64,000 bases of DNA from Nitrosopumilus adriaticus (lineage in GTDB: Archaea > Thermoproteota > Nitrososphaeria > Nitrososphaerales > Nitrosopumilaceae), in NCBI RefSeq assembly GCF_000956175.1, contig NZ_CP011070.1, forward strand, positions 744,001-808,000. The letters run 5' to 3'. The notes beneath the pieces were generated by a model. That model searched no databases. It was not told the origin of the DNA and saw only the letters and a list, made by a program, of their open reading frames with translations. The number at the start of each line of letters is the position of its first letter. Position 1 is the stretch's first letter. A program made the translations under genes and the position numbers. Positions 42,648-63,177 of the stretch are shown piece after piece.

Positions 42648-42701
42648 ACTAGTGCTAATTCATGCCCAAAACCCCTGAAAAAATGTTATAATTAGGCACT
42701 A
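42648..42701. promoter_or_regulatory. CACTAG-type elements in divergent promoter
   Basis: ACTAGTGCTAA (42648-42658; TTAGCACTAGT on the minus strand) precedes TATATA for the zinc-ribbon pair. TTAGGCACTA (42692-42701) precedes the TATA-like ACATAAATA for 42751. Both belong to the element set spanning 42.6-62.8 kb. Confidence 0.65.
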
Positions 42702-42750: not shown

Positions 42751-43113
42751 ATGCCACATATCGTATTTGGTGAAAGAATTGATCTTGAAGATTTTTCAAA
42801 AAAATTTACAGAGATATTTCAGAAAGAGCCATTTTTGATTAAAATAACGAATATCTTTATTGATAATGAGAAACTAACTGCTCTGTTACCAACTATTGTT
42901 ATATCTGAAATTCATCAACAATTTTTGATAGAAATTTCAACACGAAAATCAAAAACTACAATTAGACTATACCCAAACACCGATCCTGAAAAAACTGATG
43001 GTGTGAAAACTTCAATGGCATTACTAGCACAACAAATAATGAACCATTATCCTGGATTTGAGATTACAAAAACAAATCTATCTGATTATCTATCTATGGT
43101 GATTAAAAATTGA
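42751..43113 (+). CDS. Hypothetical protein in CACTAG regulon (120 aa)
   Basis: 120 residues, small soluble alpha/beta domain (MPHIVFGERIDLEDFSKKFT; QQFLIEISTRKSKTTIRLYP). No motif recognised. Overlaps the SRPBCC gene start by 4 bases, so the two are one operon with translational coupling. Promoter element at 42692. Confidence 0.65.
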   Translation: MPHIVFGERIDLEDFSKKFTEIFQKEPFLIKITNIFIDNEKLTALLPTIVISEIHQQFLIEISTRKSKTTIRLYPNTDPEKTDGVKTSMALLAQQIMNHYPGFEITKTNLSDYLSMVIKN

Positions 43114-43565
43114 ATACTTTTACTATGGAGCGCTGCTCTTCTCTACCCCAAAACAAACTTTTTCAATTAAGCACTGATATAGAAAATTTTCATAATATAA
43201 TGCCTGAGAATTTCAAATCCCTTGAAATCATAAAGGAAAATGATTATGGGAAGATTGTAATTGAAAAAATAAATTTTTTAGGAATTCCTTTAAAAATTAA
43301 AACAAAACATGTTATTGCCAAACCCAATGTGCATGAGATCCATATTTTAAGTGGACCAACTAAAGGGACTGTCTTTACTGAAACATATGTTCCATCTGGA
43401 GATGGAACCATAGTCTCTATTGAGGTAAAATTAATTCTTAGTGGATTTTTTCGTATGTTTGGTTTTTTAGAGGGCTATATCAAAAATAAAATGAGTGCTA
43501 CCATGGATGAATTCATTATCTGTGCTGAGAAATTCGATGATTCTCTTAGCCCCAATCAGAATTAG
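43110..43565 (+). CDS. SRPBCC/START-like lipid-binding protein
   Basis: 151 residues from a TTG overlapping the previous TGA; an ATG at 43125 (MERCSSLPQNKL) is possible. The START-like pattern is seen: ERCSSLPQNKLFQLSTDIEN near the start, then GPTKGTVFTETYVPSGDGTI and a long C-terminal helix over residues 120-145. This superfamily binds lipids, quinones or pigments. It precedes the phytoene-desaturase-like gene. Similar proteins occur in bacterial light-response clusters. Confidence 0.78.
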   Translation: MNTFTMERCSSLPQNKLFQLSTDIENFHNIMPENFKSLEIIKENDYGKIVIEKINFLGIPLKIKTKHVIAKPNVHEIHILSGPTKGTVFTETYVPSGDGTIVSIEVKLILSGFFRMFGFLEGYIKNKMSATMDEFIICAEKFDDSLSPNQN

Positions 43566-43600
43566 CACTATGCAAATTTGTTAGCACTTGCATAAATAGT
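43562..43600 (+). promoter_or_regulatory. Two direct-repeat elements, FAD enzyme promoter
   Basis: TTAGCACTA (43562) and TTAGCACTT (43581) are 19 bases apart. The second runs into GCATAAATAG, so it lies at the BRE position of the TATA box. Confidence 0.72.
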
Positions 43601-43619: not shown

Positions 43620-44954
43620 ATGGGTAAAACTACTGTGATTATTGGTGCCGGCGTTGGTGGTTTGACTACAGGGGCCCTATTATCAAAACAAGGCCATATA
43701 GTCAGAATTTTAGAAAAATTATCCAAACTTGGTGGCAGAACAGCCTCTATGAAATACCGAAATCACATTCTTGACAATGGATTTCACATAATGCCTTTTT
43801 ACAAAAAATCTGCTATTTTTAGCGTTTTAAAAGAAATTGGAATACAAGATAGACTGAAACTGGCCAAAGTAGATGATATTGCATTTCATTCTGATTCTGG
43901 ATTTCACAAATACCCAAAAGGGATGATTGATCTATTACAGCTCTCTTTAATTCCTTTTAAAAGTAGAATAATATTACTCAAGCTTTTACTTCCTATGGCA
44001 TTTTCATCTATTGAAAAAACAGAAGAGTGGGATGACAAATCCTTAACTGAAATTACAAAAAATCTTGATCCTGACACAAATGCATTTTTTGAGGCAGTCT
44101 GCATGCTGGCATTTGCAGATACTGCAGATCACATTTCGTTGGGTGAATTTGCAAGAACCATCATTCGGGCTAACCCCTTCAAAGGAGGCACAAGTGAATT
44201 TGCCTATCCTGATGATGGTGGCTATGATTCTATTTCGAGAGTTTTAGGAGATTATATTATTGAGAATAATGGTACCATTGAAACAAATCATTCTGTGCAA
44301 AAAATTATCATAGAAAATTCTAAAGTTATTGGAATTATTGAAAATGATGGTACTTTTTTTAAATCTGACTGCGTTGTGGTGTCATATCCTGCATATGTCG
44401 CTCTCAATCAATTATTTGATGAAAACACCATAGATAGAAAATTTATTGAAAAAATAAATCGTTTAGATAAGAAAACTGCCGTAGTAGAGGTTCATTTTGC
44501 ACTAAGCTCTAAAATTGATTCTCGTCAGGTTGTTTTTCCAGTTGGTGATAATTATACAACAAAAGGAATTTTCTTTATTTCAAATATTACCCCATCTGTT
44601 TCCCCTGATGGGGAGCACTTGATCATAGCTGGTACTCCTGTTGAGCCATCTGTAGCAGATGACTCTGTAAAAATTAAAGAAATTGTGGAAAAAATGAAAG
44701 ATGAAATTTCATCTATTTATCCTGAATTTAATTCATCTTTGCTTTGGGAAAGACCTATGGCTTGGAAACTTGTAGAATCCGTTGTAAAAGAGCCTGGAAT
44801 GGTTTGGAAATCAAAAATGCCTCACGAAATTCCTGGAATTGAGGGCTTGTTTTTTGTCGGCGATTCTACTATTAGTTATGGTATAGGTACAGACTCTGCA
44901 GCGCACAGTTCAATTTTATGTACTCCTAAAATTCAATCATTTTTGAAATCTTGA
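43620..44954 (+). CDS. FAD-dependent oxidoreductase, phytoene-desaturase-like
   Basis: 444 residues. N-terminal dinucleotide site IIGAGVGGLTTGALLSK with an acid and ILEKLSKLGGRTAS, then the C-terminal FAD segment LFFVGDSTISYGIGTDSAAHS. This is the CrtI/amine-oxidase-like fold. The chain is shorter than CrtI (about 490-510), and no phytoene synthase or lycopene gene is adjacent, so a carotenoid substrate is not proven. Its regulon mates make a pigment- or isoprenoid-related reaction attractive. Confidence 0.88.
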   Translation: MGKTTVIIGAGVGGLTTGALLSKQGHIVRILEKLSKLGGRTASMKYRNHILDNGFHIMPFYKKSAIFSVLKEIGIQDRLKLAKVDDIAFHSDSGFHKYPKGMIDLLQLSLIPFKSRIILLKLLLPMAFSSIEKTEEWDDKSLTEITKNLDPDTNAFFEAVCMLAFADTADHISLGEFARTIIRANPFKGGTSEFAYPDDGGYDSISRVLGDYIIENNGTIETNHSVQKIIIENSKVIGIIENDGTFFKSDCVVVSYPAYVALNQLFDENTIDRKFIEKINRLDKKTAVVEVHFALSSKIDSRQVVFPVGDNYTTKGIFFISNITPSVSPDGEHLIIAGTPVEPSVADDSVKIKEIVEKMKDEISSIYPEFNSSLLWERPMAWKLVESVVKEPGMVWKSKMPHEIPGIEGLFFVGDSTISYGIGTDSAAHSSILCTPKIQSFLKS

Positions 44955-44962
44955 TTTTTTAG

Positions 44963-45805
44963 TTATAATTTTCTTAGAATTTTTGGAATGTCTTCAAGAT
45001 TAATGTCTGAGACTACTTGGGCATCAAACTTTGGAATTTTTTCTGACTGGACTGCTCTTCCTCCAACTAATATCGGAATTTCATACTCACTCTTGATTTT
45101 TTTAATTAGTCTTTGAGCTGCTGGCAGGTTATCATCTATAGTGATTGAAATCATCACTGCATCTGGTTTATCATTTTCAATGAATGTTAGAATCGATTCA
45201 GTTGGGATTGATGTTCCTATATTGAATATTTTATACCCTTTAATCGTTAGATATGTTTCCAGCACATCACATCCTAAATGATGTTCCTCTCCCAACGGAA
45301 CACAAATGAGAACTTTTTTCTTATTTCCAGAACCTGATACTCTATCCATAATTATTTTTACCAGCGTAAGAGCTATGTTGCTTGCAACATGCTCTGTGGC
45401 AATGCTAATTTTATTACTTGCCCAATCTTCTCCAACTTGATACATTACTGGTTTGAGAATTTTATCGAAAAAATCTGATGTGCTAAATATTTTTTCATAT
45501 TCTTCATAAATTTTAATGCAATCTTGAATGTTGCCGTCAGTTAATTTTTTGTATAATTGCTTCTTTGATTTTTTAGATGCGTCTTCTCTTTTTTTGATGT
45601 CTTTTGGATTAAATGATGCAAGAACTGACAACACTTTAGGATCATTTCTATAGTCCACTGGAATGTCATCTTTTACAACTTCTGATGCTTTACCGAGATA
45701 TTTTACAATCTCTTGTTTTGACGTGCTTTTCTTTGAATCCCATACGCTCTTTACAAGATATAGGTATTGATCAGATTTTACTTTTTTAGCCCTAATGTAC
45801 ACCAT
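44963..45805 (-). CDS. CarH-like B12-binding putative photoreceptor
   Basis: 280 residues. A four-helix bundle (about 80-155) contains W128 followed by nine residues and E138-H139, the Wx9EH motif that marks light-sensing adenosylcobalamin proteins of the CarH/LitR type. The Rossmann part (163-280) has E173-x-H175-x2-G178, whose His would bind cobalt, and VGGR near 247. The N-terminus is not MerR: residues 1-45 (VKSDQYLYLVKSVWDSKK; IVKYLG) match a small domain seen at the start of some transposases. It has its own repeat elements upstream, so autoregulation is likely. Confidence 0.82.
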   Translation of the reverse strand: MVYIRAKKVKSDQYLYLVKSVWDSKKSTSKQEIVKYLGKASEVVKDDIPVDYRNDPKVLSVLASFNPKDIKKREDASKKSKKQLYKKLTDGNIQDCIKIYEEYEKIFSTSDFFDKILKPVMYQVGEDWASNKISIATEHVASNIALTLVKIIMDRVSGSGNKKKVLICVPLGEEHHLGCDVLETYLTIKGYKIFNIGTSIPTESILTFIENDKPDAVMISITIDDNLPAAQRLIKKIKSEYEIPILVGGRAVQSEKIPKFDAQVVSDINLEDIPKILRKL

Positions 45806-45834: not shown

Positions 45835-45863
45835 CTAATGCTAATCATGTTAACTAGTGCTAA
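45835..45863 (-). promoter_or_regulatory. Two direct-repeat elements, CarH-like gene promoter
   Basis: On the minus strand TTAGCACTAG (45854-45863) is followed 19 bases later by TTAGCATTAG (45835-45844), which runs into TTATATGCC. Same 19-base spacing and TATA contact as at 43562 and 52094. Confidence 0.75.
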
Positions 45864-46318: not shown

Positions 46319-46328
46319 CTAGTGGTAA
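46319..46328 (-). promoter_or_regulatory. CACTAG element upstream of 45874 gene
   Basis: TTACCACTAG on the minus strand, about 20 bases before AATATTTATT. Single clear copy; a degenerate TTAG lies 19 bases downstream. Confidence 0.6.
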
Positions 46329-46913: not shown

Positions 46914-47459
46914 ATGGATAGTCCATATACAGATTTTGTCGGTCAAGTTTGGGCAGAATTCCCACAACTTGCAGAATGGCATAATTTGGATAAATCTATT
47001 CTGCCTCTCTGGAAACTAGATAAATTCATCGAAGCCGGATATCATAATTTTTCGTCTGACCGAAAGTCCTTATTTCATCTTAGTAAGTTAATTGAGGCGT
47101 ATGCACAAGAAAATAGTCAGCCCCTTTTGGCCTCTTTTGAAGAGGTAAAACGATACAAATTTGTTGAAAAAAGATATCAGGAGATGATTAAAACAATTCC
47201 AAAAATATGGGTTATCGCCAATTTTGGAAAAACAGAATTAAAGACACCTCCAAAAATACAAGTGTTGAATTGTGGAAACACCAATTTGGCAAAGGTATGG
47301 ACTGTAATTACTAGAGGACCTTATGGCCCATTTGGTCTAATTGCTGAAGAATTTGAAGATGGAATGTTTAGAGGATTTTTTACACTAAATCCCAATGTTT
47401 GCAGATATGCCCTAAAGGTAATGGGCAAAACACTTGGTGCAAAATTTACAATCCAATAA
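46914..47459 (+). CDS. DICT-like sensor domain protein
   Basis: 181 residues with a paralog at 52168. After a helical N-terminal half (1-70), the second half reads LLASFEEVKRYKFVEKRYQE, then WVIANFG, a central strand-rich part, VWTVITRGPYGPFGLIAEEF and GMFRGFFTLNP. That order (F-x-EV-x-RY, then Leu-x-AEE) matches my recollection of DICT sensor domains, which are linked to light responses in cyanobacteria and haloarchaea. The name needs a profile search. The gene is 23 bases before photolyase in one operon. Confidence 0.6.
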   Translation: MDSPYTDFVGQVWAEFPQLAEWHNLDKSILPLWKLDKFIEAGYHNFSSDRKSLFHLSKLIEAYAQENSQPLLASFEEVKRYKFVEKRYQEMIKTIPKIWVIANFGKTELKTPPKIQVLNCGNTNLAKVWTVITRGPYGPFGLIAEEFEDGMFRGFFTLNPNVCRYALKVMGKTLGAKFTIQ

Positions 47460-47482
47460 CTGATTAAAGTTTTAAACTAACG

Positions 47483-48829
47483 ATGTATGAAAAATCATTA
47501 TTTATTTTTCGAAGAGATTTAAGATTAAATGATAATACTGGATTGATTAAATCTCTTGCAAATTCAAAAAATGTTATCCCATGTTTTATTTATGATGATA
47601 ATTTACTAAAAAATTCAACCATTTCTGAATTTAGATGGAATTTTCTTAACGAATCATTGTTTGATTTAGATTTGGAATTGAAAAAGAAAAAAAGCACTCT
47701 TCATCAATTCCGAGGAGATTCGTCATTGATTGTAGATGAAATAATTCAAAAATTTAATGTAGATGCAATATTTACAAATACTGATTTTTCAGAATATTCA
47801 AAATCACGTGATTCCAAGATTAATGAAATTTGTAAGAAAAATAAAATTGATTTTCATTTGTCCCTTGATTATCTTTTACATAATCCTTATGACATCAAGA
47901 CCAATGATGAAAAACCATACATGATTTACTCTCATTTTTACAAAAAGGCACGTCAACTTGCAGTTAGACTTCCTTCAAAAAATTCTAAAAACAATTACTC
48001 TAATGCAAAAATTTCTAAAGTTAAAATAAAAATGCCCGAAATTAAAAATCCTATAATTCCAGGTGGTAGAAATGAAGGTCTAAAAATCCTGAAAAATTTA
48101 GAAAAATTCATAGACTATGATAAATTTCGAGATTTTCCAAGTCTCTGTCATACTACAACATTATCTGCTCATAACAAATTTGGAACTTTGTCTATTAGGG
48201 AGATTTATCATGCAATTGAGCAAAAATTAGGCTTAGATCATGTATTGATGGGTGAAATCTATTGGAGGGAGTTTTTTAACCATATTTTGTTTAATTTTCC
48301 GTGGTCTCAAACAAAATCTTTTAGAAAAAAATTCCAAAAAATCAAATGGACTAAATCTAAAGAAAATTTTTCTGCTTGGTGCGATGGTGAAACTGGGTTT
48401 CCAATTGTTGATGCAGGTATGAGACAGCTTAATCAAACTGGATTTATGCATAATCGAGTTAGAATGATTGTGGCTTCCTTTTTGACAAAAGATCTTCATA
48501 TTGATTGGCGATTGGGGGAGCGATATTTTGCAAAAAAACTAGTTGATTATGATCCTGCCGTAAATGTTGGAAATTGGCAATGGACTGCATCCACCGGATG
48601 TGACTCTGTTCCGTATTTTCGAATTTTCAATCCTTGGCTGCAACAAGAAAAATTTGATTGTGATTGTTTGTATATTAAAAAATGGGTTACAGAATTAAAT
48701 AAATTGTCTCCAAAAATTATTCATAATTTATGGAAATGTTTTCCTGAAGATTTGAATTACGTACGTCCTATAGTAAACCACAAAATTGAATCTGAAAAAA
48801 CTAAATTGATATTCAAATCACAAAAATAA
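47483..48829 (+). CDS. phr: Deoxyribodipyrimidine photolyase (class I CPD-type)
   Basis: 448 residues. N-terminal alpha/beta antenna domain (FIFRRDLRLNDNTGLIKSL), linker, then FAD domain with GEIYWREFFNHILFN, TGFPIVDAGMRQLNQTGFMH, NRVRMIVASFLTKDLHIDWR and DYDPAVNVGNWQWTAS. Residues for FAD binding and the electron-transfer Trp region are present. It repairs cyclobutane pyrimidine dimers with blue light. Second gene of the DICT operon. The tail beyond the catalytic core is short and Cys-rich (FDCDCLYI). Confidence 0.95.
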   Translation: MYEKSLFIFRRDLRLNDNTGLIKSLANSKNVIPCFIYDDNLLKNSTISEFRWNFLNESLFDLDLELKKKKSTLHQFRGDSSLIVDEIIQKFNVDAIFTNTDFSEYSKSRDSKINEICKKNKIDFHLSLDYLLHNPYDIKTNDEKPYMIYSHFYKKARQLAVRLPSKNSKNNYSNAKISKVKIKMPEIKNPIIPGGRNEGLKILKNLEKFIDYDKFRDFPSLCHTTTLSAHNKFGTLSIREIYHAIEQKLGLDHVLMGEIYWREFFNHILFNFPWSQTKSFRKKFQKIKWTKSKENFSAWCDGETGFPIVDAGMRQLNQTGFMHNRVRMIVASFLTKDLHIDWRLGERYFAKKLVDYDPAVNVGNWQWTASTGCDSVPYFRIFNPWLQQEKFDCDCLYIKKWVTELNKLSPKIIHNLWKCFPEDLNYVRPIVNHKIESEKTKLIFKSQK

Positions 48830-48970: not shown

Positions 48971-49880
48971 CTATTGTATTTTATTTTTAGTTTGAGCTAT
49001 TTGAACTTCTTTGACTCTGTTTCGAATTGTAACCGCACTTATTCCTGATATTTGAGAAAGCCGAGTTTGTGAAATTCTCTCATCGTTTTTCTTTACTGCA
49101 AGATATACTGCAGCTGCTGCCATCGACATTGGATGTTTTCCAGAATTTATGCCTGCTTTTTCACTAAATTCCAAAATTTTCCTTGCATCACGAATAGTCT
49201 TTTCAGAAATCTGTGCCTCACTTGATATACGTGATACAAATTCACATGGGTTATAAGATTCAGAATGAACTTCTAGATTCCTATAAAGAAGACGGTATGT
49301 TCTTTGAATTACTTTCTTTTTTATTCCTGATGCATTTGCAATATCATCTAAAGTTCGTGGTGTGTCTGTCATTCTACAAGCCATGTATACAACTGCACAA
49401 AGAATGGAATGATTTGAACGACCTGCAAGTAAATTTTTTTTGCTCAGCCTTTCTAAACAAGTATGCTGATTTTTCAACAACATATTCAGGTAAGGCAATC
49501 TTTGATCTAATGCCATCAAGAAATGTGAATGCCTTGATGAATGACTGTTTTGTAATTGCTGATTTACTATTTCTATCCCACATTCTTAATCTATGAAATG
49601 ATTGCTTGTTTTTGGTGGAGAGAATTTTTCCTGAAGAATCTTTATTTTGAGATTGAATTGATGTGGATAATCCCATATCTGCCATCTTTAATGATATTTT
49701 TTGTCCAGTCCTTGATGAATTTTGATAATCCTCCATAGTACTGTTTTGACTCTCTGGGCCAAAATCCATAATTTTTTCAGTTAACACTTGTGCACAATTT
49801 CTACATGCAATTTCTCCGGTAACAACGTCCGTGATCTTAAAAAAATGTTGACAAGATTTTTCTAAATTCTTTTGTTTCAT
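48971..49880 (-). pseudogene. Second TFB, interrupted by A8 frameshift
   Basis: The N-terminal part (from 49880) reads to LFRKAEQKK and the C-terminal part (to 48971) continues from NLLAGRSNHSILCAVVYMACR in another frame. Eight T at 49434-49441 (A on the coding strand) must be seven to join them; the joined chain is 302 residues, like the tfb at 35643. Its zinc ribbon is degenerate: C10 and H12 near the start, then C26 and C29. It has its own CACTA promoter. It could be an error, a decaying gene, or one read by slippage on the A run. Confidence 0.82.
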
Positions 49881-49927: not shown

Positions 49928-50034
49928 ATAGTGCTAAAATCACTTTGGATGAATTCTATATTTGATTGCTAACTTTTTTGGAAAATATGTCCTAAATTTT
50001 GGCACTAGTGATAAAATTATCACTAGATTATATA
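49928..50034. promoter_or_regulatory. Divergent promoter with CACTA elements
   Basis: Towards the TFB (minus strand): TTAGCACTAT at 49928-49937. Towards 50056 (plus): TTGGCACTAG (49999-50008) and TTATCACTAG (50017-50026) are 18 bases apart, the second touching TTATATACT. Confidence 0.72.
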
Positions 50035-50617: not shown

Positions 50618-52039
50618 TTGAGTGATACTTTGATGGGATCTATGTCTACTGAAAAAACTGTATCCAGTCAATCTCCCTCTGCTATGAATTTAAAAAACAC
50701 CCCCTACAAAATTATGGTTACAGGGTCTACTGGATTTATCGGTTCCAGATTAATATCTAATCTTACAAAAAACGGATATTTAGTCAAAGGAATGTCAAGA
50801 AAAAAAATACTCTCAACATCTAAAGTGAAATATGTTCAGGCTGATGTCTTTAATCCTCAAGAGATTGAACGTGCACTAAGTGGTGTTGATGTTGCATACT
50901 ACTTACTCCATTCCATGGAGGGAAATAAAGAAGAGTGGAAAGAATTTGCTAATCGTGAAAAAATTCAGGCTCAAAATTTCTTAAAAGCTGCTACAAATGC
51001 TGGTGTTAAACGGATTATCTATCTTGGGGGTCTTGTAAATGATAGTTTATCGCTATCTCCTCACATGAAGAGTAGGAAGGAAGTGGGCGAGATTCTTGCT
51101 TCGGGTAATATTCCTGTAACTGAATTACGTGCATCATTGATTATTGGAGCCCAAGGCGGTTCATATGCAATGCTGCGATATCTTGTGGAGCGATTACCTG
51201 TAATGGTTTGTCCATCTTGGGTTAAATCTTTGGCACAACCTATAGCTGTAGATGATGTTATAGAATATCTTAGAGGTTGCATGGAAAAACCTGAAACATC
51301 TGGAAACATTTACGAAATTGGAGGACCTGATAAAATTACTTATGAGGAATTAATGAGAGTCTATGCCAAATATTTGGGGAAGAAACTCTTTGTAATACAA
51401 ATTCCTTTTTTGACTACTCGCTTATCTTCATACTGGGTTGATCTAATAACGCCTGTAAAGGCATCTCTTGCAAGGCCATTAATTGATAGTCTAGTTCATG
51501 ACACTGTAGTAACAGATGACAAAATATCAAAAATAATTCCTTTATCTCTAAAATCTGTAATTGAATCAATAGATGTTGCAACTAAAGAAATTAGAGAAAA
51601 TCCTCCCCCAACACCACTTAAGGAAGAACGGACTGGGTTTATAATTAATCAAAAACTTTTGATGGCTTCATTAATTGCAATGGCTATACTTGGTACAACA
51701 TACTACTGGTTAGATGATAGATCTGAACTTTTTGAACCTGTCTGGATGATTGCTGGTATTCTATGGTATGTTGCAATTATTTTTGCTATAATTTTTATCA
51801 AAAGCAAGACTCGATTAGGATTTCTAATTGGGGGTCTTGTATCTTGGATTACTTTGGCTTTTTGGTTATTTGATAACTTCTATGTTTTGTTTGATGTGTC
51901 TTTAATTGTGGATCAGCCTAACGAATTGATTACTATACGAAATTTCATTTGGACTGGCTTATCTGCAATAGCAGTTTTTGCCTCTCATAATACTTTCCAT
52001 AAAGTAATTGATTATCAATTTAAAGGAAAACCCATTTGA
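50618..52039 (+). CDS. Extended SDR (NAD-dependent epimerase-like) with C-terminal membrane domain
   Basis: 473 residues from a TTG directly after the previous stop; ATGs at 50633 and 50642 are alternatives. Nucleotide site VTGSTGFIGSRL (34-45), then AYYLLHSMEG, RIIYLGGLV and ELRASLIIG, the atypical/complex I-type SDR group (YbjT-like). Residues about 343-470 form four hydrophobic segments (LIAMAILGTTYYWLDD; IIFAIIFIKSK). SDRs of this type recur in bacterial LitR/CarH clusters. Substrate unknown; the membrane part suggests a lipid-like one. Confidence 0.85.
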   Translation: MSDTLMGSMSTEKTVSSQSPSAMNLKNTPYKIMVTGSTGFIGSRLISNLTKNGYLVKGMSRKKILSTSKVKYVQADVFNPQEIERALSGVDVAYYLLHSMEGNKEEWKEFANREKIQAQNFLKAATNAGVKRIIYLGGLVNDSLSLSPHMKSRKEVGEILASGNIPVTELRASLIIGAQGGSYAMLRYLVERLPVMVCPSWVKSLAQPIAVDDVIEYLRGCMEKPETSGNIYEIGGPDKITYEELMRVYAKYLGKKLFVIQIPFLTTRLSSYWVDLITPVKASLARPLIDSLVHDTVVTDDKISKIIPLSLKSVIESIDVATKEIRENPPPTPLKEERTGFIINQKLLMASLIAMAILGTTYYWLDDRSELFEPVWMIAGILWYVAIIFAIIFIKSKTRLGFLIGGLVSWITLAFWLFDNFYVLFDVSLIVDQPNELITIRNFIWTGLSAIAVFASHNTFHKVIDYQFKGKPI

Positions 52040-52086: not shown

Positions 52087-52146
52087 ATTATGTCACTAGA
52101 TTATGTTATTACCACTAGGATATTTTATTACCACTAGTTTTATATG
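52087..52146 (+). promoter_or_regulatory. Three direct repeats, exactly 19 bp apart
   Basis: CACTA cores begin at 52094, 52113 and 52132, each in the frame TTAT(T)nnCACTAG. The last is followed directly by TTTTATATG. This is the clearest example of the element in the window. Confidence 0.8.
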
Positions 52147-52879: not shown

Positions 52880-53167
52880 ATGGTTGATATTATTTGGGGT
52901 AATGGGAATGCTGTTTTTTCAAGTAATTCATTCGTTCTTAATGTAACCCATAGAAAGGATGGAAACAAATCTGAATACAAAGACCAAGAAAAAATTTTAA
53001 TAAAATCTGCTGACATTCCTGGATTGTCCAATGGATCTGATCATTGGGATGAGGAACTTCTTAAAAATTCTGTAATTGGGGCTTTTCTAAAATGTGAAAT
53101 AGAATCTAGAGGTGATGATGATGTGCTTATTGCCAAAGTTTCTCATTCTGGTGTAGGTGGATACTAG
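52880..53167 (+). CDS. Hypothetical protein (95 aa)
   Basis: 95 residues from the ATG at 52880 (MVDIIWGNGNAVFSSNSFVL); 52856 is an upstream alternative. Small, mixed fold with a Gly-rich end (SHSGVGGY). Its stop overlaps the GTG of the oxygenase gene (TAGTG), so they are coupled. No family recognised. Confidence 0.6.
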   Translation: MVDIIWGNGNAVFSSNSFVLNVTHRKDGNKSEYKDQEKILIKSADIPGLSNGSDHWDEELLKNSVIGAFLKCEIESRGDDDVLIAKVSHSGVGGY

Positions 53168-53943
53168 TGTGGAATGCAGAAATTTTTGACATTTCTGAAA
53201 TTCATTCTATAAATATTGAATCTTTGATACATGGTAAAGTTCCTGCAATAATAATCCGGAATCTTTATGATAAAAAAATATGTGAAAAAATAGTTGAGAG
53301 ATTAAAAAATTTTGAAAAATCTCCATTCCTAAATAATGAATCTAACCACATAGGGCCTTTTTTAATGTCATACACTACAAGAAAAGATGAGTATTTTACT
53401 GCTGCCAAAAAAAATGAAAAAATATTTGAATCTGTTTTCTCTCAATTACCATCTCCTATAATTAAAATACGTCACGCGATTGGATGTATTTTTCCTGATT
53501 ACTCTGTATGCTCTGCAAGGGAATTAGAGAAATTATACTCTTCATGTATTATTAGAATTCATGAAAAAGGAAAATTCATTCCACTTCACAAAGATGATGT
53601 AAAATACGAAGGGAAAGAATACGGTATATCCAAAATTGATCATCAAATTTCATGTGTGCTTCACTTACAAGAATCTGAAAGTGGGGGGGATGTAATAATT
53701 TTCAAGAAAAAATGGATTAAAGAAAATGAGAAATTTCGAAATATTGACTTTGGGTATTCTCCAAAACTAGTAGACTCGGCTGAATCATTTCAAATCTCCA
53801 ATATTGAATCTGGAGATCTGGTAATTATCAATCCGAATTATTATCATATGGTCACAAAAATTACTGGAAATTTACCCCGGATCACTCTTGGGATGTTTTT
53901 TGGAATTTTTAGGCATAACAATAGAATTTTTGCATGGGCGTAA
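53167..53943 (+). CDS. 2-oxoglutarate/Fe(II) oxygenase-like protein
   Basis: 258 residues from a GTG. The facial triad is visible: H141-K-D143 in IPLHKDDVKY and H227 in NPNYYHMVTKI, with R238 after it to hold 2-oxoglutarate. A strand LHLQESESGGDVIIF lies between. It has a prolyl-4-hydroxylase-like layout. Likely cytoplasmic; the substrate may be protein or a small molecule. It shares an operon with the 52880 protein. Confidence 0.75.
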   Translation: MWNAEIFDISEIHSINIESLIHGKVPAIIIRNLYDKKICEKIVERLKNFEKSPFLNNESNHIGPFLMSYTTRKDEYFTAAKKNEKIFESVFSQLPSPIIKIRHAIGCIFPDYSVCSARELEKLYSSCIIRIHEKGKFIPLHKDDVKYEGKEYGISKIDHQISCVLHLQESESGGDVIIFKKKWIKENEKFRNIDFGYSPKLVDSAESFQISNIESGDLVIINPNYYHMVTKITGNLPRITLGMFFGIFRHNNRIFAWA

Positions 53944-53972: not shown

Positions 53973-54890
53973 TTACAATTGTGAAAATGAATCATTGGGT
54001 AATCTGAGATTGTGAAATTTTTCAGGATTGATTATCTTGGCTAAAATTTCTAATCCCTCTACAGTTCTTATGCTCGGCTTACTGAAAAATGAATTTGCAT
54101 CAACTGCATAAATTTGATTATCGTTTACGGCCTTGAGAGAATTCCACGTTTCATCTTTTTTTAGAATCTTGTTGTATTCATGTACTGTTCGTTTTGTGTC
54201 AAAACCACATGGCATCATAATTATGATATCTGGGTCAGACCCAATAACTTCTTGAATATCTAGACGTCTTGAATGCTCTCCTATCTTGCTAATCATATTG
54301 ATTCCTCCTGCCATCTCTATCATTTCAGGTATCCAGTGACCTGCTGTAAAAAATGGTTCAATCCATTCTATTGCTAATACTTTTGGTTTTTTACCACGCT
54401 GCTCTTTTTTGATATGGTGAATTCTTTTTTCGAGAGATTCTCTAATCTCTTTGGCCTTAGTCTCTTCAGATAATATTTTGCCCAACTCTGTAACTGATTG
54501 CATAATTTCATACATGTTGTGAGGATCCATTGAATGTAGCAGTGGCTTTGTTTGAAGAATTTCCAGAGCTTTGTTTATTTGATTTGTATATGCCGCACAC
54601 ACCTCACATGTTTCCTGAGATATAATTAGATCTGGATTTGCTTTTTTCAGATTGGTCTCATTAATTGTAAAGATGTCTTTTCCGTCATTTAGTAATTGAC
54701 ATGTTTTAGTATCAATTTCATTACTTGTTAATTCTTCTGAGTTGATCACTGAATTGATAATTATTGGTTTTGTTAATGCATCTGGGGGAAATGTACATTC
54801 ATGTGTTACACCATAGAGATCATCTTGCACTCCGAACTCGTAAAGTAATTCAGTTGCACTGGGTAAAAATGAGACTATTCTTCTTGCCAA
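53973..54890 (-). CDS. BtuF/TroA-like cobalamin-binding protein without signal peptide
   Basis: 305 residues from a TTG. Two-lobed periplasmic-type fold: IVSFLPSATELLYEFGVQDD, GVTHECTFPPDAL, then VLAIEWIEPFFTAGHWIPEM and GSDPDIIIMMPCGFD. These are the B12-binding-protein signatures. It has no signal peptide or lipobox, so it may be cytoplasmic or exported by another route. No transporter genes are adjacent. It lies in the same region as the B12 photoreceptor, which may be a functional link. Confidence 0.85.
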   Translation of the reverse strand: MARRIVSFLPSATELLYEFGVQDDLYGVTHECTFPPDALTKPIIINSVINSEELTSNEIDTKTCQLLNDGKDIFTINETNLKKANPDLIISQETCEVCAAYTNQINKALEILQTKPLLHSMDPHNMYEIMQSVTELGKILSEETKAKEIRESLEKRIHHIKKEQRGKKPKVLAIEWIEPFFTAGHWIPEMIEMAGGINMISKIGEHSRRLDIQEVIGSDPDIIIMMPCGFDTKRTVHEYNKILKKDETWNSLKAVNDNQIYAVDANSFFSKPSIRTVEGLEILAKIINPEKFHNLRLPNDSFSQL

Positions 54891-55110: not shown

Positions 55111-56271
55111 TTGTTGCAATCGAATTCTCAGGATATTAGACGTGCAATTTTAGCCAAATGGCATGAGACTCTTTCAAAACATGGAAATCTCTTTTCATCT
55201 GATTCAATAAGTGGAACTAGTCCTCCTTCTGTCTTTGTAGGCTCTTATAATTATCCCAAAGTCTTTGTTGGTCCAATGATCCCACCAGTTCATGGTGATA
55301 CTAGTCTACTTGATAGCCCTGAAAGATGGGGAGGAAAATCATTAGAAGATATTGTAAATTTTAGATTAAATCTAGTCCGTGGAATACAAAAAGTCTCCAT
55401 TGAACAAACAGAAGGAAAATACATTGAAAACCTTCAGGAAGTTGCAATGTCTTCAAAACCCATTGATACTGATTTGACATTTGAGAAACCTACCTCTGCT
55501 AACATTTCTCTTGATGGGGAGAGTGCACCATTTGGGCCAGTCGGGATTATTAATTCTGCAAAATTCTCTGGAAGCACTTCTGAAAAATCTATTGAAAAAA
55601 CTTTCTATGACAAAGATTTGAAAGCACAAGATGCCGTATTGAATCTATATAATTCTGGAATTGAAATTTCAAAGATTCAAAAATGTTTTAGCATTGGAAT
55701 GCTTGGTCAAAAAAGAAAACTGGTTCCCACTAAATGGAGTATCACTGCAACTGACGATATAATTTCCAAATCGCTTGTTGATGAAATTTTGGATTTTGGA
55801 ATTATTGATTCCTATAGGGTTTTCTTCTTTGAGCATTTGGGAAATGTTTTCACTGTAATTTTATTCCCTCATAGATGGATCTATGAAATGATTGAGGCGT
55901 GGTATTCTAATGGCATCTTGGGTTTTGGCTCTGATTATGAGGATGCAAGAGGCATTGATCATCCCCCTGCAATAGCTGGGGCCTATTTTGCAGCCAAACT
56001 TGGAGTTTTAGAATATCTAATAAAAAATCAAATTCAATCTGGAGTGATAATTCTGCGAGAAATTCGACCTGAATATGCAATTCCTGTGGGTGTATGGCAA
56101 GTTAGAGAAGGAATACGTACAGCAATGAAACAAAACCCGATTATTTCAGACAGTCTTGATAATGCTTTAACAACTGCATCAAATAAAATGAGTATTAGTA
56201 AATCTGAATGGCTATCACATGGAAATATTTCCAAATTGCTGAGACAAAAAACAATGTCTGATTATTTTTAA
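55111..56271 (+). CDS. Nre family DNA-repair protein with PCNA-binding tail
   Basis: 386 residues from a TTG (a second TTG follows). Conserved Nre segments: VFVGSYNYPKVFVGPMIPPV, WGGKSLEDIVNFRLNLVRG and FGSDYEDARGIDHPPAIAGA. The last eight residues QKTMSDYF match a PIP box (Q-x2-M-x2-Y-F) for PCNA binding, as known for archaeal Nre proteins. No N-terminal zinc site is present. It ends with a 4-base overlap with the YbgA gene on the opposite strand. Confidence 0.9.
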   Translation: MLQSNSQDIRRAILAKWHETLSKHGNLFSSDSISGTSPPSVFVGSYNYPKVFVGPMIPPVHGDTSLLDSPERWGGKSLEDIVNFRLNLVRGIQKVSIEQTEGKYIENLQEVAMSSKPIDTDLTFEKPTSANISLDGESAPFGPVGIINSAKFSGSTSEKSIEKTFYDKDLKAQDAVLNLYNSGIEISKIQKCFSIGMLGQKRKLVPTKWSITATDDIISKSLVDEILDFGIIDSYRVFFFEHLGNVFTVILFPHRWIYEMIEAWYSNGILGFGSDYEDARGIDHPPAIAGAYFAAKLGVLEYLIKNQIQSGVIILREIRPEYAIPVGVWQVREGIRTAMKQNPIISDSLDNALTTASNKMSISKSEWLSHGNISKLLRQKTMSDYF

Positions 56272-56816
56272 TTTTTAGAATTGCTTTTTGCTAAAATTTT
56301 AAACAAATTCCCTTCTTCCTGATTTGAATACAGTAAGAAATACGTCTGACTGGCAAGATATGTGGAATTGAATCTGTATATTATTGGATTTATCTCCGAT
56401 AACAATCTTCCAAGTGTGATCTTTTCTTCCTGAAATTGTTTTAATAAATCAAAAAACATTTCTTTTTCTGACTGGCTGAAATTCTTTGAAAAAAATCCAA
56501 AAACATGTAGTATAACATTACAATGTGTTTTGATTGTAGGCTCTTTTTCTAATGCGATTATTAGATGTTTTTCGTATTCTGCAACTGTTTCTGATAATTG
56601 CCCTTTTTCATAATTTGCAACAATATGTCCTAATTTTTTCAATTCTTCTTGATCATGTGACATTATCATGAATTTGTTATTGGTTTGAAATGAAATAAGA
56701 TCATTTATCTTGTTTGATTTTTTTACCTCTTCAAATTTGTCTAAAACAAATTCCTTTGCATCTTTTTCAGAAATATTATTACTGACTGAGTCTCTTACTT
56801 CTAATTTCTTACTCAT
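56268..56816 (-). CDS. YbgA (DUF1722) family protein
   Basis: 182 residues from the ATG at 56816 (MSKKLEVRDSV); ATGs at 56825 and 56834 are also in frame. The DUF1722 pattern is clear: NKFMIMSHDQEELKKLGHIV (family: YHKFLLMAHSP...LGR), HCNVILHVFGFFSKNFS and FNSTYLASQTYFL. In E. coli ybgA is adjacent to phr, and the domain recurs in bacterial light-response clusters. Molecular function is not known. Its promoter abuts a CACTA element at 56868. Confidence 0.85.
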   Translation of the reverse strand: MSKKLEVRDSVSNNISEKDAKEFVLDKFEEVKKSNKINDLISFQTNNKFMIMSHDQEELKKLGHIVANYEKGQLSETVAEYEKHLIIALEKEPTIKTHCNVILHVFGFFSKNFSQSEKEMFFDLLKQFQEEKITLGRLLSEINPIIYRFNSTYLASQTYFLLYSNQEEGNLFKILAKSNSKN

Positions 56817-56867
56817 TCTTAACATTCTATTCAATTTACATATAAGCAGGAATCATTGAATTTTGAA

Positions 56868-56937
56868 TTACCACTATGATTTTCAATTTTTTTGAATTAA
56901 TTACCACTAGAATATACTTTGGCACTAGCTTAAATAT
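56868..56937. promoter_or_regulatory. Three CACTA elements between YbgA and 56959 genes
   Basis: TTACCACTATG (CACTA at 56872), TTACCACTAG (56905) and TTGGCACTAG (56923). The last two are 18 bases apart and the last touches CTTAAATATC for the plus-strand gene. The first, inverted, is about 25 bases from the minus-strand CTTATATG. Confidence 0.72.
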
Positions 56938-56958: not shown

Positions 56959-57864
56959 ATGAAAAGCGCAATAACTGCAATCACATCTATTCTACTCATA
57001 AGTTCAGTTGCATCCTTTGCTTATGCCGAAGGTGTTCCTGCTTGGGTAAAGAACAATGCTGGCTGGTGGGCAGATGGCACTATAGCCGAATCAGACTTTA
57101 TCTCCGGCATAGAATTCCTAATTAAAGATGGAATTATCGTAATTCCCCCAACAACCGTATCTTCTGAATCATCAGAAGGTGTTCCTGCTTGGGTAAAGAA
57201 CAATGCTGGCTGGTGGGCAGATGGCACAATTTCTGATGGTGAATTTGTAAATGGTATTCAACATTTGATAAAGACTGGATTAATTTCAGTCTCCTCAAAT
57301 ACTGAGACTACACAAATGGTATCTGAAAAACCAAAGAGTGATGATTCTAAATTAGCTTCACTTGAAGCTGAATTAGAGAAATGCTCTGAAATCAAAAAAG
57401 CATATGATAGACTAAACTGTGAAAGATCTGCAAAACATGAGATATTGGCATATGAATACATGCTAATTTCTCAACCTTATCCAGTTGGACCAGTTACCTT
57501 CTATTGGCCAGGTTTTGGTGTTGAAGGAAATACCTTTGAAATCACTTCTTCAGGTCAGGCATTACTTAGTCTTAGGATGCTAGTTGAGAATACTGGTTCA
57601 AATACTGAGGCATTGTTTTGTACAGGACCTGCCGTGTGCAACTATGATGTTACAAATGGTGATAGAAATTTCAAGTATTCCGGAATGGATTTCACTAATG
57701 GTCAAGTTGTAATCAAACCTGGAGAGACTCAGATATTCAATATGTTCTTTGGACCAAATATTGGTGGCGGTGGAACTACATTTGAGTATGATTCTGGAAA
57801 AGAGTACTACTTTAGAATCATGGAATCCTTTGGAAGTGCTTCTATCCCATTAAATCTGGGATGA
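56959..57864 (+). CDS. Secreted W-module protein, 2 modules
   Basis: 301 residues. Signal peptide to SFAYA; two W-modules (VPAWVKNNAGWWADGTIAES and a near-identical one, about 23-110); a coiled-coil-like link with one Cys pair; then a beta-sandwich domain (YPVGPVTFYWPGFGVEGNTF; GETQIFNMFFGPNIGGGGTT). Its first half is identical at DNA level to part of the next gene. Function unknown; under the light-type promoter element. Confidence 0.78.
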   Translation: MKSAITAITSILLISSVASFAYAEGVPAWVKNNAGWWADGTIAESDFISGIEFLIKDGIIVIPPTTVSSESSEGVPAWVKNNAGWWADGTISDGEFVNGIQHLIKTGLISVSSNTETTQMVSEKPKSDDSKLASLEAELEKCSEIKKAYDRLNCERSAKHEILAYEYMLISQPYPVGPVTFYWPGFGVEGNTFEITSSGQALLSLRMLVENTGSNTEALFCTGPAVCNYDVTNGDRNFKYSGMDFTNGQVVIKPGETQIFNMFFGPNIGGGGTTFEYDSGKEYYFRIMESFGSASIPLNLG

Positions 57865-58801
57865 CCACTTTTTTATTTTCTCTTATTTTTTACCACTAGT
57901 TTGAAATAATTACTTGTTTAAATATTCTCGGCGATAAGAAAACACGATGGATAAATTCCTAATAATATTTCCATTGATTGTTCTAAGTGCACCTTTGGCA
58001 TTTGCTGAATCCTCAAATGTTGGTATAATTTATTGGGAAAAGGAAATTGTATCAATTAACTCATTTGCTGATATTATTGTAAAAGATAATGATATGAATA
58101 AAAAAGAATATCCGAACTTTGCCGATAAATTCACGATAACTGTTTGGTCTGACACTTCTCCTGATGGTCTGGAAATTCAAGTTGTTGAAAATGGTGTCTA
58201 TAGCGGAATTTTTAAGGGAAGTGTTTACATTGCAGATTCTGGGGAGCCTACAAAAAATCGTCTCATCTCATCCCCTGGTGATGTCTTGTATGCAAAATAT
58301 GTTGATTCGACTTTACCTGACGGAGGGTCTTCTGAAATTATTTCAGCTGCAGTTGTAAAAATTTCTGGTGAGGATATGAGTCCCATTTTAAATAAAATCG
58401 ATCCTAGTATGCGTCATTTGAAAACCCCTCAAAGTGAAATACCTGCTTGGGTAAAGAACAATGCTGGCTGGTGGGCAGATGGCACTATAGCCGAATCAGA
58501 CTTTATCTCCGGCATAGAATTCCTAATTAAAGATGGAATTATCGTAATTCCCCCAACAACCGTATCTTCTGAATCATCAGAAGGTGTTCCTGCTTGGGTA
58601 AAGAACAATGCTGGCTGGTGGGCAGATGGCACAATTTCTGATGGTGAATTTGTAAATGGTATTCAACATTTGATAAAGACTGGATTAATTTCAGTCTCCT
58701 CAAATACTGAGACTACACAAATGGTATCTGAAAAACCAAAGAGTGATGATTCTAAATTAGCTTCACTTGAAGCTGAATTAGAGAAATGCTCTGAAATCAA
58801 A
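57037..58801 (+). repeat. 360-bp identical direct repeat between two genes
   Basis: 57037-57396 and 58442-58801 match base for base on my reading, 1405 bases apart, covering both W-modules and the coiled link. The regions before and after it in the two genes are clearly diverged, which fits recent gene conversion. Confidence 0.9.
57891..57925 (+). promoter_or_regulatory. CACTAG element upstream of 57947 gene
   Basis: TTACCACTAG (57890-57899) lies about 25 bases before TTTAAATATT. Single clear copy, at the distal position. Confidence 0.6.
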
Positions 58802-59269
58802 GTGGGCTACAAGAGAATTGATTGTGAAAAGCCGCTCAAAAAAGCAATCGCTCTTTACAAATACCAAACAAATGCACAAAAATTTGAGATAGGGCCAATC
58901 ACATATTATTGGTTTGGAGTAGGTTCTGAAGGAAATGGATTTGAGATTAGTCCTACTGGTCAAGCTATTTTATCAATTCGAATGCTTGCTGAAAACACTA
59001 GTTCTGAGATTACTGCACTACATTGTACAAGTCCTTCAATATGCAGTTATGATGTTTGGGATGGGACTAACGCCTTCAAGTATTCCGGGATGGATTTCAC
59101 GAGTGGTGAAATTGTATTGAACCCTAATGATTCAAGAGAGTTTAACATTCTCTTTGGTCCGAACATTGGATATGGTGGAACTGAGTTCAAGTATGATCCT
59201 TCAAAGACATACTATTTTAGAATAAATGAGAATTTTGGCAGTGTGGATATTCCTCTAGAATTAAAATAG
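57947..59269 (+). CDS. Secreted W-module protein with extra N-terminal domain
   Basis: 440 residues. Signal peptide to AFA; a beta-rich domain (about 22-160, VGIIYWEKEIVSINSFADII); then two W-modules and coiled link identical to 56959's; then a C-terminal sandwich about 60% like that protein's (FEIGPITYYWFGVGSEGNGF). A Cys pair recurs near the end. Probably a partner or surface paralog of the 56959 protein. Function unknown. Confidence 0.78.
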   Translation: MDKFLIIFPLIVLSAPLAFAESSNVGIIYWEKEIVSINSFADIIVKDNDMNKKEYPNFADKFTITVWSDTSPDGLEIQVVENGVYSGIFKGSVYIADSGEPTKNRLISSPGDVLYAKYVDSTLPDGGSSEIISAAVVKISGEDMSPILNKIDPSMRHLKTPQSEIPAWVKNNAGWWADGTIAESDFISGIEFLIKDGIIVIPPTTVSSESSEGVPAWVKNNAGWWADGTISDGEFVNGIQHLIKTGLISVSSNTETTQMVSEKPKSDDSKLASLEAELEKCSEIKVGYKRIDCEKPLKKAIALYKYQTNAQKFEIGPITYYWFGVGSEGNGFEISPTGQAILSIRMLAENTSSEITALHCTSPSICSYDVWDGTNAFKYSGMDFTSGEIVLNPNDSREFNILFGPNIGYGGTEFKYDPSKTYYFRINENFGSVDIPLELK

Positions 59270-62046: not shown

Positions 62047-62080
62047 TTAGCACTAGCAAAGACTTTGAGCACTATTAATA
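62047..62080. promoter_or_regulatory. Two elements 19 bp apart, divergent promoter
   Basis: TTAGCACTAG (62047-62056) and TTGAGCACTA (CACTA core at 62070) are 19 bases apart; the second runs into TTAATATGCATAAA for the plus-strand genes. The first may also serve 61271 in reverse. Confidence 0.72.
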
Positions 62081-62862: not shown

Positions 62863-63177
62863 ATGCAACAAACAACAAACAAAAAAACACCACAGCTAAA
62901 GTTTCTAGCGATCTTGGCTGTTGCCACTTCAGTCATACTAGTTTTGACTATTACTCCTTGGAACATAATTCCAACCCTAGTAACTGAAGATGTCACAGTA
63001 ATTGCTGTAACTGACTACGGTTGTGTTGGAGAGTCCACTTTTGGACATTCCGTTGTTGTTTCTGCATGTGATGTAGGTGTTGGAGATACAGTCTCTGCAA
63101 CATTTTATGTCCCTGCAATGGAACAAAACGGATACTATGATAGAATTGAGGACAAGCTAGAAATGGTTATTCCTTAA
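62863..63177 (+). CDS. Small membrane-anchored extracytoplasmic protein, paralog of 229-507
   Basis: 104 residues. A membrane helix (about 13-33, FLAILAVATSVILVLTITPW) then an outer domain (VTEDVTVIAVTDYGCVGEST; CDVGVGDTVSATFYV), with two Cys that may pair. A site TGAGGAG lies 5 bases before the ATG. Same plan as the protein at 229. Under the light-type element; function unknown. Confidence 0.7.
   Translation: MQQTTNKKTPQLKFLAILAVATSVILVLTITPWNIIPTLVTEDVTVIAVTDYGCVGESTFGHSVVVSACDVGVGDTVSATFYVPAMEQNGYYDRIEDKLEMVIP

Follow-up and report, generated by a model that had tools for sequence, protein, structure and literature searches.

The stretch of DNA analysed here, referred to as the window, comprises 64,000 nucleotides and sits in a complete genome of 1,803,090 bases. 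An open reading frame encoding a putative B12-binding regulator was found on its minus strand, exactly where the original prediction had placed it. The assignment is based on the reading frame, Pfam, NCBIfam, motifs, fold and tree; gene and domains are located as follows.

44963..45805, minus strand: B12 photoreceptor-like transcription regulator, 280 aa
45668..45805, minus strand: N-terminal domain, residues 1-46; three-stranded antiparallel sheet, basic; proposed DNA-binding domain
45353..45562, minus strand: B12-binding_2 helical bundle, residues 82-151, containing W128 and E138-H139
45047..45316, minus strand: B12-binding Rossmann domain, residues 164-253, containing H175 (proposed cobalt ligand) and GxxxP201

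We identified 39 homologues of the B12 protein spanning three families of ammonia-oxidizing archaea. Among 398 Nitrososphaerota genomes, full-length relatives were confined to the order of the window, Nitrososphaerales. In GTDB genomes, 164 relatives were confirmed, and the best 80 of these were ammonia-oxidizer or Thaumarchaeota records except for a few labelled only 'archaeon'. A search for a viral copy found none.

The B12 gene lies in a cluster with genes for an SRPBCC protein, a FAD oxidoreductase of the phytoene-desaturase kind, two DUF6659-like proteins, DICT proteins, a photolyase, a TFB paralogue and an NmrA-type SDR; a stand-alone DUF1722 gene is located farther away.

42751..43565, plus strand: DUF4108-like 120-aa gene and SRPBCC gene, overlapping; proposed regulon members with single sites
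43620..44954, plus strand: FAD-dependent amine-oxidase/phytoene-desaturase-like oxidoreductase; proposed regulon member
46914..48829, plus strand: operon of a DICT-domain gene and a photolyase (8-HDF type); cluster neighbours
50618..52039, plus strand: NmrA-type SDR oxidoreductase (Pfam, context in relatives)
56268..56834, minus strand: stand-alone DUF1722 protein; proposed regulon member

In relatives, genes of these kinds again surround the B12 gene, in varying order, with the NmrA-type SDR as its commonest divergent neighbour. In T. thermophilus, the TtCarH cluster holds phr, an NDUFA9-type SDR and a FAD oxidoreductase; bacterial clusters controlled by LitR contain photolyase, SDR and FAD oxidoreductase (PMC9758184), and RudS (TudS-DUF1722) sits in light-responsive operons of bacteria (PMC11417400). 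Within the family of the window, the FAD oxidoreductase was present in 20/39 genomes bearing the B12 gene and in 0/24 lacking it, DUF1722 in 30/39 and 1/24, respectively. Loss of the B12 gene is therefore accompanied by loss of the regulon as a whole. Neither in the window nor at the loci of relatives was a methyltransferase partner seen in the vicinity of the B12 gene. Several other genes were observed in the region. A 2OG-Fe(II) enzyme (53167-53943, plus strand) matched the WelO5 halogenase model with 89 bits and is linked to DICT genes in several relatives. A 104-aa protein that looks membrane-anchored (62863-63177) and WWADG-repeat secreted proteins (56959-57864 and 57947-59269) have TTANCACTA upstream in most relatives.

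The original prediction had recognized a light-sensing B12 protein by W128, E138-H139 and E173-x-H175-x2-G178. This numbering proved exact; furthermore, the protein has GxxW (G125), GxxH (G172) and GxxxP (G197/P201). By the published definition, light-responsive B12 domains are marked by GxxW, EH, GxxH and GxxxP (PMC11796333); with all four motifs present, the window protein meets this test of membership. W, E and H were kept in 38/39 family sequences and G172, H175 and P201 in 39/39; the motif set therefore cannot be attributed to chance. The residues of TtCarH contacting AdoCbl, namely W131, E141, H142 and H177, correspond in register to W128, E138, H139 and H175. The one exception to the conservation of W, E and H was a second, divergent copy of the B12 protein in a single genome (L046:8902-9765). 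It has lost W and EH, keeps GxxH and lacks a paired promoter element upstream; this copy is a candidate for a light-independent paralogue comparable to CarA.

The Pfam models B12-binding (50.4 bits) and B12-binding_2 (39.6 bits) both scored above cut-off. Among NCBIfam models, CarH (62.5 bits) ranked ahead of corrinoid (46.8) and MetH (39.0) models; membership in the CarH equivalog was not met at 62.5 bits vs a cut-off of 400 bits. A sequence search of the PDB returned photocobilins on top (8j2w/8j2x, E 2e-14), and CarH, MetH and corrinoid proteins ranked lower. The AlphaFold model of the full protein reached a mean pLDDT of 86.7, and its best 50 Foldseek matches in the PDB were all CarH, CarH-like MerR or photocobilin light sensors. 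Full-model TM-scores to these sensors were modest (0.3-0.5), probably due to a differing orientation of the two B12 subdomains. A maximum-likelihood tree was calculated for two Thermus CarH, three MerR-type LitR, four other light-type domains, four MetH and twelve corrinoid proteins together with the B12-protein family. A branch with 100/100 support parted corrinoid and MetH proteins from the light-type domains including the family of the window; the order among the light-type clades was left unresolved (53/31). A grouping with corrinoid methyltransferases, which would have refuted the original prediction, was thus not observed; the B12 half resembles the green-light sensors of bacteria. The genome encodes another B12-binding protein, of the kind found as small subunit of mutases, which we take to use AdoCbl; hence, this cofactor should be available in the cell.

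The position of TtCarH His132, which makes the bis-His light state (PMC10442372), is occupied by A129 in the window protein, and this column is variable in the family. CtMerR and SasPcob are light-responsive homologues that also lack His132; the light state of the window protein would therefore have to resemble that of CtMerR and photocobilins, not that of TtCarH (PMC11796333).

Neither the whole protein nor any of 18 N-domains matched MerR or HTH models, and the N-terminus was modelled as a β-sheet, which agrees with the claimed absence of a MerR domain. Structure prediction of the isolated N-domain yielded three strands and a helix with a pLDDT of 90.7. No solved structure was found for it by sequence and none significant by fold (PDB, best E 0.58); none of the curated families covers it. 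The claimed resemblance of the N-terminus to transposases was borne out by profile searches and hhalign. Outside the B12 family, the N-domain profile matched proteins of the genome G255, one of them a DDE transposase (DDE_Tnp_1, 1.5e-6), and the N-domains of Fic proteins from the genus g8 (4.5e-24). Comparison with the transposase N-domains by hhalign gave E 6e-13, the profile-profile probabilities being 97.9% on the transposase side and 95.6% for Fic. Bit scores of real sequences ranged from 20.8 to 37.2 vs a maximum of 15.2 over about 14,000 shuffles. The homologous stretch is a 40-residue sheet, Yx[YF]LVxSxWD...KYLG, and a direct count of residues 1-40 gave ten K/R and three D/E. A DDE catalytic domain, as expected of an IS1634/IS4-like transposase, is absent from the window protein; the DDE_Tnp_1 match belongs to the transposase (L107). 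That the N-domain binds DNA is inferred from homology, charge and co-occurrence, without binding data. A search of plasmids with the N-domain had zero matches. A free-standing N-domain of 74 aa (L053:9253-9477) is encoded beside an NmrA-type SDR, with TTAGCACTA upstream. The genomes encoding the g8 Fic proteins with this domain (L108-L111) lack the B12 protein.

A repeated element was first noticed by reading the promoters of the window and hence tested afterwards in other genomes.

45836..45863, minus strand: TTAGCACTA-N10-TTAGCATTA, proposed autoregulatory operator immediately preceding the TATA-like TTATAT in the promoter of the B12 gene
43562..43589, plus strand: paired TTAGCACTA upstream of the FAD oxidoreductase gene
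42650..42658, minus strand: TTAGCACTA upstream of the DUF4108-like/SRPBCC pair
46320..46328, minus strand: TTACCACTA upstream of a 132-aa DUF6659-like gene
50006..50025, no strand assigned: inverted TTATCACTA pair upstream of the linked TFB gene
49929-49937: further TTAGCACTA near this inverted pair
52090..52136, plus strand: three tandem copies in 19-bp steps upstream of the second DICT-type gene (52144)
56868..56909, plus strand: two TTACCACTA in the divergent promoter between DUF1722 and the gene at 56959

No exact element precedes the DICT-photolyase operon in the genome of the window. A further element pair was seen at 62047-62074, in the promoter region shared by two divergent genes for a 262-aa protein and a PNPOx-like protein (62216). 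The 11.5 kb cluster contains nine TTANCACTA sites vs 91 genome-wide. As a direct repeat, TTAGCACTA-N10-TTAGCACTA with a 19-bp period, the element lies right against the TATA box of the B12 promoter in each of the three families; the consensus of this promoter reads TTAGCACTAg-N9-TTAGCAttAg-TTAtatA, the second half-site touching the TATA box. Pair and TATA box are likewise found in the outgroup families f2 and f3, where the protein is only 30-42% identical. Same-strand pairs with the 19-bp step accounted for 70 of about 86 listed pair distances at B12 genes; this step also occurred 14 times for DICT2 and 11 times for the FAD oxidoreductase. In a set of 118 orthologous loci, TTANCACTA was located upstream of the B12 gene in 99/117 cases, and the element upstream of DUF1722 in 66/68, FAD oxidoreductase in 50/57, DUF4108-like genes in 41/54 and DICT2 in 18/21. 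For the unrelated neighbours OBG, BirA, CoAbd, HTH190, Peripla_BP_2 (btuF-like) and Nre, TTANCACTA was found in 0-1 of about 25 each. An unselected survey of these loci covered 65 gene families for a pair with 19/18-bp spacing upstream, allowing up to 2 mismatches. Eight families had the pair in at least 30% of their members, namely the 104-aa protein, B12 protein, WWADG-repeat protein, DUF1722, a small copper-protein-like family, DICT, FAD oxidoreductase and SDR, while 50 stayed below 5%. The NmrA-type SDR had paired elements upstream in 27/85 cases and photolyase promoters in 0/21. Off-cluster pairs precede the same genes (SDR, DICT, 104-aa protein) and a uracil-DNA glycosylase. A literature search returned no paper with TTAGCACTA.

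Genome-wide counting of pairs separated genomes cleanly at ≤1 mismatch and became too noisy at up to 2 mismatches. Pairs (≤1 mismatch) were present in 36/39 gene-bearing vs 1/24 gene-less genomes of the family (Fisher p about 6e-13) and, within the genus of the window, in 19/19 vs 0/9. A reversed control pattern gave low, even counts in both groups. Co-occurrence alone cannot prove which protein reads the element, because genomes that have lost the B12 gene have lost the regulon genes as well. The linked TFB was absent, at a cut-off of E 1e-80, from 15 gene-bearing genomes, of which 13 keep pairs; outside the genus of the window, this cut-off could hide very divergent orthologues. Within the genus, where TFB orthologues are 52-58% identical, two genomes without TFB (G126, which is complete, and G303) have kept their pairs. 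The opposite case is G397, in 120 contigs, which has TFB and three paired sites and in which no B12 gene was found. In the window itself, the linked TFB paralogue (48971-49880, minus strand) is split by a frameshift at an A-run, and the orthologue in L054 is intact (302 aa); the split may be either a real loss or a sequencing error.

Taken together, we consider it probable (roughly 0.7) that this protein of ammonia-oxidizing archaea is an AdoCbl-dependent, light-responsive transcription regulator resembling CarH/LitR, in which a non-MerR domain with a three-stranded sheet binds DNA. We also favour, with some reserve, the wider proposal that a light/UV-stress regulon in ammonia oxidizers of sea and soil is under the control of an archaeal B12 photoreceptor, which would act by way of a non-HTH domain derived from transposases and a dedicated TTAGCACTA repeat operator. 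The ligand signature, the light-type grouping, the homology of the N-domain and the conservation of the repeat, as well as the joint presence of repeat and B12 gene, are demonstrated at the level of sequence. AdoCbl binding, photolysis, the oligomer, the N-domain as binder and the sign of regulation are inferred, no light or binding experiment being available. In the dark, AdoCbl would be enclosed by the helical bundle (W128, E138) on one side and the Rossmann domain on the other, with His175 on cobalt, and it may fix an oligomer that uses its N-domains to grip tandem TTAGCACTA half-sites spaced by 19 bp. In the promoter of the B12 gene itself, the downstream half-site borders on the TATA box, at the place expected for contact between TFB and the BRE. 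Given this position at the TATA/BRE edge, binding most likely represses; we infer repression with only a modest preference over activation. Light would break the Co-C bond, the adenosyl group would leave and the oligomer or its grip on DNA would change, allowing expression of the regulon, i.e. its own gene, DUF1722, the FAD oxidoreductase, the NmrA-type SDR and DICT proteins; the photolyase may be a member in some genomes. The genes behind the element are a set of the kind controlled by bacterial LitR, which suggests a light switch.

The reading as a CarH-like photoreceptor is thus supported, with photochemistry and DNA binding unproven, and genome context and the conserved operator-like element add support that the original prediction did not have. 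The protein is not a member of CarH/MerR, as tests for a MerR domain and for the CarH operator failed. The predicted new output domain on a light-type B12 sensor was upheld as regards the missing MerR domain and the transposase-like N-domain; its DNA binding remains an inference.

A different factor, such as the linked TFB paralogue, may read TTAGCACTA, in which case the B12 protein would act by protein-protein contact and its N-domain would not bind DNA. We regard this as unlikely. The downstream half-site lies where a BRE would be, the TFB paralogue is linked in many relatives with elements upstream of it, TFB and paired sites are both present in G397, where no B12 gene was detected, and the Fic proteins demonstrate that the N-domain is not restricted to DNA enzymes. 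However, pairs persist in the 13/15 B12-gene genomes without a close TFB paralogue, including the complete G126, the TFB gene of the window is frameshifted, and even the 74-aa stand-alone N-domain gene has the element upstream. Moreover, a second half-site 19 bp upstream and the reversed sites before DUF1722 do not fit a BRE; the element as BRE of the linked TFB is hence disfavoured.

It is also conceivable, if rather improbable, that the B12 protein senses the level of AdoCbl instead of light and signals cofactor availability or the oxygen/oxidative state to this regulon. AdoCbl is bound by these residues irrespective of the signal, the protein has no counterpart of His132, and a Peripla_BP_2 (btuF-like) gene is located close to the cluster (53973-54890); TtCarH, too, responds to oxygen in addition to light (PMC10442372). 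Yet the btuF-like gene lacks any element in 26 relatives, and the regulon consists of light-damage genes (DUF1722, SDR, FAD oxidoreductase, with photolyase nearby), not of genes for cobalamin uptake or synthesis; loss of His132 is shared with CtMerR and SasPcob, for which light response is published (PMC11796333). Hardly any weight can be given to a corrinoid carrier of a methyltransferase system with a coincidental light-type motif. Corrinoid and MetH models do match, but these domains lack W and EH and have DxHxxG where the window protein has ExHxxG, and no methyltransferase partner was seen nearby. An origin from corrinoid methyltransferases is rejected by the 100/100 branch of the tree; the window protein does not group with MtaC/MtbC/MttC.

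Ammonia-oxidizing archaea rank with the most abundant marine organisms, and light inhibits them. We found neither a report of an archaeal light-type B12 domain nor a described light-sensing regulator of these organisms in the literature, subscription papers being outside the search. If the proposed light-responsive regulator is real, a specific sensor, target genes and a DNA site would be at hand, and the light response of nitrification could be tested by simple experiments in vitro and on transcripts. A B12 photoreceptor with a new DNA-binding module would also be a useful optogenetic part for archaea. Known fusions of light-type B12 domains comprise HTH, GGDEF, biliverdin-binding, GAF and MEDS domains (PMC11796333).

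Compared with CarH/LitR (TtCarH, class I/II LitR), the window protein has the same order of DNA-binding domain (proposed here), helical bundle and Rossmann domain, the same motifs GxxW, EH, GxxH and GxxxP, a gene beside photolyase, SDR and FAD oxidoreductase genes (PMC9758184) and a tandem direct-repeat operator overlapping the core promoter. Unlike these, it occurs in archaea, which have TATA promoters, and has neither the MerR winged-helix domain nor His132; the CarH operator is a tandem nnnnTnnACAn at 11 bp (PMC9304148), whereas the one proposed for the window protein is TTAGCACTA at a 19-bp period. With photocobilins and stand-alone light-type domains (SasPcob, AbDPcob) it shares the light ligand residues without His132, and 8j2w/8j2x were its best PDB sequence match, but it has no biliverdin-binding half and instead carries the N-terminal sheet domain and a proposed DNA operator. 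Archaeal DDE transposases (DDE_Tnp_1) and Fic proteins possess the homologous 40-residue sheet N-domain, which in the window protein is fused to a light-type B12 sensor without a catalytic domain. The LitR regulons of Pseudomonas (RudS/DUF1722, phrB, SDR, FAD oxidoreductase) overlap with the archaeal genes (PMC11417400, PMC9758184); in contrast to them, the archaeal DUF1722 is a stand-alone protein without the TudS part, the operator differs, and the archaeal set adds DICT, WWADG-repeat and 104-aa proteins.
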